A stretch of 64,000 bases of DNA, taken from the NCBI GenBank assembly GCA_026195895.1, contig JAPHRO010000027.1, forward strand, positions 1-64,000. Direction: 5' to 3'. The DNA is from Gammaproteobacteria bacterium. Lineage in GTDB: Bacteria; Pseudomonadota; Gammaproteobacteria; SZUA-229. Numbering within the stretch: position 1 is the stretch's first letter; the number at the start of each line of letters is the position of its first letter. The notes under the pieces were generated by a model, which saw only the letters and a list, made by a program, of their open reading frames with translations, was not told the origin of the DNA and ran no database searches. The translations under genes were made by a program, and so were the position numbers. Positions 38,803 through 54,233 of the stretch are shown here, piece after piece.

Positions 38803-38843
38803 AATAAACGCAAATAGAATATTCAAATCTATTTGCGTTTATT
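38803..38843. terminator. Bidirectional terminator
   Basis: AATAAACGCAAATAGA and TCTATTTGCGTTTATT form a perfect 16-bp stem around a 9-base loop, between the convergent S24 peptidase and HDOD genes. Confidence 0.88.
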
Positions 38844-51910: not shown

Positions 51911-52330
51911 TCAGGAATTAACCAGAGATTCGAGTAACTCCCAGTGCTCATCCTGCTGTATTTCCGCGGCAAGATTATGGTAGACCCAGTCCCGATTTAT
52001 TTCTTTTACCATTTTTTCACAATATTCGGGTAGAAAAGTATACAGAATAAACATCCTGACACCGTCGGTTGTCACCACGGCCACAAACACCGACACGCTG
52101 CTGGTTTCCAGTCGGTCCTGCAACAAAGCCTCTAACTCCATTAATAGCCGATTTTCCTCCGCGTACGGATAGCCATCAATATCCATCGTAGACAGAGGAA
52201 CGGTTATGGTTAACTGGTAAATATATTTGGCATGACAGATATAAGCTTCGACGTTTTTATTTAATCGAAGACTCAGTGGATGTCCCTGATAATCCCTGAA
52301 GTAGACACTCCAGTCGTAATCTTTTTTCAT
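51911..52330 (-). CDS. Hypothetical cytoplasmic protein
   Basis: A 139-residue protein without signal or membrane segments, alternating strand and helix, with a conserved-looking start (MKKDYDWSVYFRDYQGHPLS). No recognised family. Codon use is like its neighbours. Good reading frame, but only moderate confidence that it belongs to a defined family. Confidence 0.65.
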   Translation of the reverse strand: MKKDYDWSVYFRDYQGHPLSLRLNKNVEAYICHAKYIYQLTITVPLSTMDIDGYPYAEENRLLMELEALLQDRLETSSVSVFVAVVTTDGVRMFILYTFLPEYCEKMVKEINRDWVYHNLAAEIQQDEHWELLESLVNS

Positions 52331-52408: not shown

Positions 52409-53179
52409 CTAGCGTCTTTTCCTGACCACAGCTAACAATCCAATCATTCCTGAAACAAACAACCAGGCAGCCGCAGGTACAGGAACTGGCGCCACATTAT
52501 TGATACGGGCATAGACTTCAGTAGACACCGACGAAGTTTCAGCCAGCGAAAGCGACGTCGCGTAACTGTTGCCGCCATCGATGCTCAAACCCACCACCTC
52601 AAGTTCATACTTGATGCCTTCAAATTTAAATATATAGGGCTCAAAAGCCTGCGCATCACTGAGACTGAGCAAGGAAATTTGATCATCCGGATCTTCCCCG
52701 TTATTCGGTGTATTGACAATGTCGAACATATATCCGAATTCGTAATTGACGCCATAGATGCTCAAACCCAGATTAAAATCCACCCCGTCGACATGGCGGG
52801 AGCGATAAGTAGGCATATTGCTATAGCTTAAACTGCCCAGTGAAAACAGCGTACCGACACTGGCTTCAAATCCTGTTTCACCGCTATCACTGCCAACCCC
52901 ATCAAATGCCAGGCTACTATGGCCACCACGCTGGCAATTCAATCGACTGCAACCCCAGTTAAACACGCTGGCAGCGTCTGTTGCGAAACCTGAATCCGCA
53001 TTCTTGATATCAACATAGTCCCAGCGACCGTGGTCCGGATTTGAAAACCCACCATAGGCCGAGCCCACAAACAGGGTATAGGAGATGCTACTGGCATGGG
53101 CCGATGAGAACAGCGCCAGCATGCACGACATGAATACTAATAGCTTGAGCGGTCTGAAGGGGCTAACAGAATTGTTCAT
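52409..53179 (-). CDS. PEP-CTERM-type exported protein
   Basis: A 256-residue protein with a signal peptide (SSAHA) and a C-terminal exosortase sorting signal: VPVPAAAWLF, a hydrophobic helix and RKRR at the very end. The mature part is a Gly/Ser/Asn-rich beta domain with one Cys pair. Such proteins are cut and anchored or released by EpsH-type exosortase, often with biofilm polysaccharide. No exosortase gene is in the window. Divergent from tetR. Confidence 0.88.
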   Translation of the reverse strand: MNNSVSPFRPLKLLVFMSCMLALFSSAHASSISYTLFVGSAYGGFSNPDHGRWDYVDIKNADSGFATDAASVFNWGCSRLNCQRGGHSSLAFDGVGSDSGETGFEASVGTLFSLGSLSYSNMPTYRSRHVDGVDFNLGLSIYGVNYEFGYMFDIVNTPNNGEDPDDQISLLSLSDAQAFEPYIFKFEGIKYELEVVGLSIDGGNSYATSLSLAETSSVSTEVYARINNVAPVPVPAAAWLFVSGMIGLLAVVRKRR

Positions 53180-53528
53180 ATCCAGTCCTTAATTAAAATT
53201 TGCATCATTACTTACACTGTATAAATATTTTTATGTGTTTTTGTTTTTTTAATTTCTGACATTCAATAAAGGCAAAATGCAGGCCAAATGACAATTCCTT
53301 CTTTTAAAACATGTATTTACCAAAAACGGCATGAATAAAACACACTGCTTTTACAAAAAACGTAATGTTTACCGACATTTTTCTATTTTGAGCAAATAAA
53401 TCAATAACTTAAATTTACATTATTGATTAACACCAGTCATTACCGTAAATTATTTCGACAAATTCCTTATGCATTCCAGCTCAGGCCTGCCCAGTTTCAC
53501 CTAAAAAAAGCACTCTAACTCCTACCCA

Positions 53529-53569
53529 ATGTTAACGACGTTTACATATAATGTAATCGCTGTTAACAT
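53529..53569. promoter_or_regulatory. 41-bp perfect compound dyad upstream of tetR
   Basis: ATGTTAAC-N5-TTACAT-ATA-ATGTAA-N5-GTTAACAT: two nested inverted repeats sharing one centre (53549), ending 43 bp before the TetR start. TATAAT lies across the centre. Probable operator for two TetR dimers. Upstream DNA (53354-53450) has partial matches such as TTTACATTATTGATTAAC. The remainder of 53180-53528 is AT-rich without a gene. Confidence 0.75.
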
Positions 53570-53612: not shown

Positions 53613-54233
53613 ATGGCCAGAAATAATAATTATCACCATGGCGATCTGCGCAATACTCTGATCAGCACAGCCATCACAATGCTCAAAGAAAACGACTCCT
53701 TTGAGATAAGCTTACGACAATTGGCAAAAAGAGCGGGGGTTAGCTATGGCGCACCCTATCGACATTTCAGAGACAAAAACGAGTTACTCGGCGCTATTGT
53801 TGCGGACGCCCACCAACATCTGGCCCAGCGCCTCGAGCGGCTGAAACAGCAGCATCTCAATGAACCATTGAAGCAGCTCACCGAGACCGCAGTTGCTTAT
53901 GTAAGCCTAGCAGTGGAATCCCCCCAGATTACCCGGCTGATGTTCGCCGGGACATTACAGCCCGGCCACAGCCCGTCATCCGAAAACCACAGCTCCGAGA
54001 GCAGCTTCAGGGTATTTCTGGATATTGTTGAAAACGGGGTAAAGCACGGACTATACAAAGATTCCGATACCCAGATGACGGCACTGGCCATCTGGTCGAT
54101 CATTCATGGATTGGTCATGCTGATTTTAGGCAGGCAATTAAATCTGGATATCTCATCCAGCATGAAAATCCAGATTATCAGCCGCATGCTGATTGATATG
54201 CTGGAAAAAGGCATTATTGTTCAGCATAACTAG
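53613..54233 (+). CDS. TetR-family regulator
   Basis: A 206-residue regulator. HTH at residues 12-60 (ISLRQLAKRAGVSYGAPYRHFRDKNELL), then a TetR_C-type helical ligand domain. Start at MARNNNYHHGDLRN (53613), the normal beginning of this subgroup; the open frame upstream covers the operator. Likely autoregulated through the dyad, and may control the divergent PEP-CTERM gene. Confidence 0.93.
   Translation: MARNNNYHHGDLRNTLISTAITMLKENDSFEISLRQLAKRAGVSYGAPYRHFRDKNELLGAIVADAHQHLAQRLERLKQQHLNEPLKQLTETAVAYVSLAVESPQITRLMFAGTLQPGHSPSSENHSSESSFRVFLDIVENGVKHGLYKDSDTQMTALAIWSIIHGLVMLILGRQLNLDISSSMKIQIISRMLIDMLEKGIIVQHN

Follow-up and report, generated by a model that had tools for sequence, protein, structure and literature searches.

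Two tandem 19-bp sites as a probable operator for negative autoregulation of a TetR-family gene divergent from a PEP-CTERM gene

Introduction

In the 64,000-nucleotide stretch of gammaproteobacterial DNA analysed here (the window), a tetR gene and a PEP-CTERM gene are transcribed divergently from a 433-bp gap that contains a markedly symmetrical 41-bp element (53529-53569; ATGTTAACGACGTTTACATATAATGTAATCGCTGTTAACAT). Which protein would bind this element, in what arrangement, and which of the two genes would be controlled? The original prediction described a nested double dyad of perfect symmetry, bound cooperatively by two TetR dimers over a TATAAT, with related sequence further upstream extending control to the exported protein.

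Results and Discussion

The TetR gene and its product

The tetR gene (53613-54233, + strand) encodes a 206-aa TetR-family repressor (MARNNNYHHGDLR...). Pfam matches to its protein were PF00440 (TetR_N; 34.1 bits, cut-off 24) and PF13305 (TetR_C_33; 44.1 bits, cut-off 26.8). A long form starting from the in-frame ATG at 53529 was ruled out; the start was placed at 53613 because homologues align from residues 2-6 of the short form. The downstream gene is convergent, and tetR stands alone. The closest solved sequence relative is 3on2, a probable transcriptional regulator of the TetR family (E 2e-20, residues 5-176).

Symmetry of the 41-bp element

The predicted arms were all present: ATGTTAAC at 53529-53536, TTACAT-ATA-ATGTAA at 53542-53556 and GTTAACAT at 53562-53569, with a shared centre at 53549, spacers of 5 bp on both sides between outer and inner arms, and TATAAT at 53547-53552. 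The symmetry proved less than perfect, at 16 of 20 pairs with only two of five positions paired in the spacers; weaker pairing continued to about 30 bp on either side of the centre. When 300 intergenic regions of matching composition were simulated, one reached this level. The full dyad pattern, with up to three mismatches, occurred once in the window (0 in 100 shuffles) and just once across the 3.33-Mb genome. Because GTTAAC, present in both outer arms, is a palindrome in its own right, these arms can be read equally well as a direct or an inverted repeat.

Symmetry by itself was less telling, because four centres in the window reached at least 16 of 20 pairs. The strongest 41-bp symmetry of the window, 17 of 20 pairs, lies at 38823 and has an odd centre. 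That three other centres equal or exceed the element would suit a reading in which the dyad is a chance palindrome or the site of another DNA-binding protein, and TetR controls genes elsewhere. We consider this highly improbable, because a 19-bp unit of the element recurs in front of tetR homologues from several genera and because nothing else in the window matches this unit as well as the two copies described below.

Two tandem 19-bp sites

The element contains four 8-bp half-sites that start at 53529, 53540, 53551 and 53562, with an exact 11-bp period, alternating strands and 3 bp between neighbours. Their sequences in order are ATGTTAAC (+), ATGTAAAC (-), ATGTAATC (+) and ATGTTAAC (-), and ATGTWAWC fits all four. 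Half-sites 1 and 2, and likewise 3 and 4, form tandem 19-bp sites of the form ATGTnnnC-N3-GnnnACAT, which fill the 41 bp without overlap. Site 1 (ATGTTAAC-GAC-GTTTACAT; 53529-53547, + strand, centre 53538) matched the homologue-derived consensus ATGTTNACNNNGTNAACAT at 13 of 14 positions, the best match in the window. Site 2 (ATGTAATC-GCT-GTTAACAT; 53551-53569, + strand, centre 53560) matched at 12 of 14, its left arm ATGTAATC deviating from the consensus, and was second only to site 1. The two centres are separated by 22 bp, or about two turns of the helix.

Two tandem 19-bp sites are a better parse of the 41 bp than a nested dyad, the pairing being settled by the homologues described below. 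The dyad about 53549 follows from this arrangement, because two like adjacent palindromes yield a palindrome about their midpoint. The nested pairing was rejected because homologues keep the outside-in arrangement; in that arrangement, the arms of the outer dyad belong to separate sites, and the inner dyad consists of the back halves of neighbours.

The 19-bp unit upstream of homologous tetR genes

A total of 22 tetR homologues were compared: 10 from other genomes in the family-level search (of 53), three full-length homologues from named genomes, six from the class and three from the phylum. The order-level search covered the same 54 genomes as the family-level search, the class homologues counted were those of six genomes absent from the earlier sets, and two weak partial matches (L018 and L019) were excluded from all counts. 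Identity to the window TetR was 29-40%. Several homologues came from one genus, of which L006-L009 and L011 are species, and the homologues are accordingly not independent.

The consensus ATGTTnAC-N3-GTnAACAT was written after the homologue upstream regions had been viewed, so the scores in those regions are descriptive. The window was also in view; the consensus follows the homologues, and sites 1 and 2 miss one and two of its 14 positions, respectively. With the window excluded, a similar site scored at least 11/14 in 18 of the 22 upstream regions and at least 12/14 in 12; L015, L016, L017 and L035 had no upstream site reaching 11/14. Among 293 other 250-bp windows taken as a control from the first 20 loci, four reached 11/14 and none 12/14. 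The upstream region of a distant TetR paralogue from the same genome (L002), also used as a control, gave 9/14.

The orientation and spacing of the unit were compared in the first 19 upstream regions. The outside-in unit (ATGT outside, AC inside) with a 3-bp spacer scored at least 12/14 in 10 of them, versus no more than two regions for each of the other spacers tried (0-15). When inverted repeats were scored by pairing alone, whatever their sequence, the 8-3-8 arrangement gave seven or more pairs in 14 of 19 regions, the top count among spacers 0-15; the 12 of 19 obtained with spacer 1 were nested within the same palindromes.

These counts also bear on the nested model, in which one dimer would occupy the central TTACAT-ATA-ATGTAA (53542-53556) and a second, centred on the same point, the outer arms. 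All 6 bp of the inner dyad's arms pair, and its half-site and 3-bp spacer are those of the 19-bp unit, turned inside out; the inside-out unit at this spacer scored at least 12/14 in 3 of 19 regions (L005, L013 and L032), there by means of a third half-site beside a full site. The outside-in unit at the same spacer reached this score in the 10 regions given above, and another perfect TTACAT-N3-ATGTAA in the same genome (C79:5324) is without outer arms. We regard the nested model as decidedly unlikely.

A related reading is an array without fixed register, in which the same protein would bind either outside-in (centres 53538 and 53560) or inside-out (one dimer, centre 53549). We hold this to be rather doubtful; if true, one element of 41 bp would give autoregulation of a graded or switch-like kind, and the third half-sites found at an 11-bp step in some homologues, above all L005, would be its traces.

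Two or three sites of at least 11/14 were present in the upstream regions of 8 of the 22 homologues. Their centres were separated by 21 bp in L033 and L036, 32 in L013, 36 in L031, 18 and 41 in L034, 36 and 18 in L077, 27 and 33 in L078, and 39 in L079; several of these distances, not all, are close to whole helical turns. An exact repeat of ATGTnnnC-N3-GnnnACAT after 1-4 bp was found in one of 369 sampled class genomes, the window's own, and in no other. The 21-bp pairs of L033 and L036 come near to it, yet are at least one base off the exact tandem pattern. No genome with a close tetR orthologue was found in the family, named-genome, class or phylum searches. The original prediction would have been refuted by a dyad not conserved beside orthologues; this comparison went in its favour for the 19-bp unit (18 of 22 regions versus 4 of 293 other windows at 11/14 or better), whereas the exact 41-bp architecture did not recur.

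The sites vary together with the stretch of the TetR homologues of type GVSHxAPY, which we take to be the recognition helix. Proteins with GVGHNAPYRHF (L006-L012) had arms ATGTGGAC or ATGTGGGC, i.e. ATGTGG, and most proteins with GVSHxAPY(R/K)HF had ATGTT arms. The window TetR has GVSYGAPYRHF, paired with ATGTTAAC/ATGTAAAC half-sites. This co-variation is consistent with each TetR binding the site beside its own gene; L006-L012 are one related group, and it may count as a single change.

A candidate promoter beneath the two sites

A sigma-70 promoter for tetR is proposed at 53541-53569 (+ strand), with -35 TTTACA (53541-53546) within site 1, a 17-bp spacer, and -10 TAACAT (53564-53569), preceded by TG, within site 2. 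It is the best sigma-70 pair there, and homologue L033 shows the same layout: of its TTGACA-17-TACAAT, the first operator contains the -35 and the second the -10. Support for the promoter rests on L033, because the consensus match alone did not exceed shuffled sequences (one sigma-70 pair in the region versus 2.3 expected). The TATAAT at 53547-53552 was rejected as the -10: it has no good -35 at 16-18 bp, the best listed being TACCCA at 18 bp, and TTTACA-17-TAACAT is the better pair.

The homologues were scanned for promoters with loose thresholds. A -35 at operator position 4 was listed for L005, L031, L032, L034, L035 and L036; in these six, unlike in the window, the left arm of the operator holds the -35, and the -10 follows downstream of that operator. 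In L006-L009 and L011 the -35 was at operator positions 11-13, and no listed -35 overlapped an operator in L010, L012-L014 or L015-L017.

Predicted autoregulation of tetR

These features indicate that the 41-bp element is probably a tandem operator for negative autoregulation of tetR. The TetR protein (53613-54233) would bind as a dimer to each 19-bp site, at centres 53538 and 53560, and the 22-bp distance would put both dimers on roughly one face of the helix, where they might bind cooperatively. Site 1 covers the candidate -35 TTTACA and site 2 the candidate -10 TAACAT, so that bound repressor would block RNA polymerase; a small ligand would release it. We infer that no other genes are controlled by this TetR. 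Of the predicted pair of TetR dimers, the adjacent TetR as binder and the room for two dimers are in keeping with the homologue regions (18 of 22 at 11/14 or better); the nested pairing is not.

Operators placed over the gene's own promoter are a well-known principle, of which the regular array of four half-sites is an uncommon instance. QacR, CgmR, Ms6564 and CprB are reported to bind as pairs of dimers to operators of 28, 32, 31 and 22 bp (PMC4150764). The window element resembles these in being a long operator with room for two dimers. It differs in that two dimers of the QacR type share 22-32 bp, whereas here two separate 19-bp sites, which two dimers would occupy, span 41 bp with centres 22 bp apart. 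The TtgR and PmeR operators (TTACA ... TGTAA; oligonucleotides in PMC4538802) have half-sites that resemble the inner dyad; however, these half-sites are much further apart than 3 bp, and the operator is a different one. Among the papers listed in literature searches by operator letters, or by TetR with the WHG domain, there was none on the 19-bp operator of this TetR.

The divergent PEP-CTERM gene has its own candidate signals

The PEP-CTERM gene (52409-53179, - strand) encodes a protein with a choice-of-anchor K domain (NCBIfam NF038131; TIGR02595 match). A DUF695 protein is encoded next to it (51911-52330, - strand). Regulators of the TetR family frequently control the neighbouring gene transcribed divergently from their own, and here the two genes are divergent and share the 433-bp gap; homologue L033, too, faces genes for an outer-membrane efflux protein and an AcrB-type protein. 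TetR might then also repress the PEP-CTERM gene, from the 41-bp element or from weak upstream sites. However, no operator-like site above 9/14 was found elsewhere in the gap, the operators are about 350 bp from the PEP-CTERM start codon, and the gene is preceded by a sigma-54-like box and a pair of PrsR-type motifs of its own, in a genome that encodes PrsR. It is unlikely that this TetR controls the PEP-CTERM gene, which is probably not part of the TetR unit.

The sigma-54 -24/-12-like box TGGCCTGCATTTTGC (53272-53286, - strand) has 9 of 11 consensus bases and is one of six such boxes in the window. A PrsR-type enhancer motif, TGTCGGTAAACATTACG (53361-53377, - strand), ends 74 nt upstream of the box and matches at 12 of 17 positions TGTCGGGAAGATTTACA, which lies upstream of another PEP-CTERM gene of the genome (L083). 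A second such motif, TGTCGAAATAATTTACG (53444-53460, - strand), also matches the L083 sequence at 12 of 17. Both window copies end in TTACG, without the terminal TTTACA, and the match is moderate. An earlier scan for the PrsR motif used wildcards picked with the window copy in view, and the repeat scan used the unmodified L083 sequence. With both strands of the 64 kb counted, unmodified TGTCGGGAAGATTTACA had 15 matches of 12/17 or better, and two of these fall in the 433-bp gap, on the right strand. Two in this one gap is more than expected, but each match is moderate. The "related sequence further upstream" of the original prediction is probably the ATGTTTAC-like sequence at 53361-53377, a motif of PrsR type, and the extension of TetR control to the exported protein through it is not supported, since outside the 41-bp element no site in the gap scores above 9/14 as an operator. 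An inverted repeat, AATCAATAA-N12-TTATTGATT, is located at 53399-53428, between the two PrsR-type motifs.

PrsR itself is encoded in the same genome (G000:C28:69877-71208; 712.5 bits, cut-off 502.6), which has 13 places matching TIGR02595. A sigma-54-like box (at least 8/11) with TTTACA 71-93 nt upstream was present at four other PEP-CTERM genes (L082, L083, L086 and L087); L088 had the box without TTTACA, and seven other PEP-CTERM genes had no box at 8/11. L083, on G000:C28, has a perfect 11/11 sigma-54 box (TGGCACGGGCGTTGC) with TGTCGGGAAGATTTACA upstream.

According to Haft et al. (2006, PMC1569441), proteobacterial PEP-CTERM genes carry an upstream 17-nt motif 1 ending in TTTACA, followed by a sigma-54 motif 2, with a spacer that averages 62.8 nt (range 32-92). 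RpoN dependence is described in PMC9850573 for one such gene. Upstream of the window gene, candidates for both motifs are arranged in the order that Haft et al. give, at a distance within their range; they differ in that the window copies end in TTACG rather than TTTACA, and they are separate from the TetR operator. Two signals of one gap that look overlapping can be told apart: those for tetR are TetR operators, whereas those for the exported protein are PrsR/sigma-54-like.

Search for other targets of TetR

A search of the genome with ATGTWNACNNNGTNWACAT, allowing up to two mismatches, gave 46 places versus 25 for the reversed control. Only three had no or one mismatch: site 1, the sole place without a mismatch, site 2 with one, and C84:64055, which sits inside a predicted ORF. 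Of the 44 places within two mismatches other than sites 1 and 2, seven were inspected; six were inside predicted ORFs and one, C1:2940 (two mismatches), was intergenic. No credible second target of TetR was found in this search of the genome, with the seven inspected places included. The 19-bp consensus ATGTTnAC-N3-GTnAACAT, which occurs beside a group of TetR_C_33 repressors in several proteobacterial lineages, is usable for target finding.

The neighbours of homologous tetR genes vary. The efflux and AcrB-type genes facing L033 were seen in a wider stretch of that locus (L061), and some members of this TetR group may control efflux. Within the window's own family, homologous tetR genes of four loci (L053-L056) face a conserved divergent gene (INRICNAHGG... 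type), possibly a shared target of that subgroup. In L053-L055, TRAP-transporter-like genes, recognized by eye, lie behind this conserved gene.
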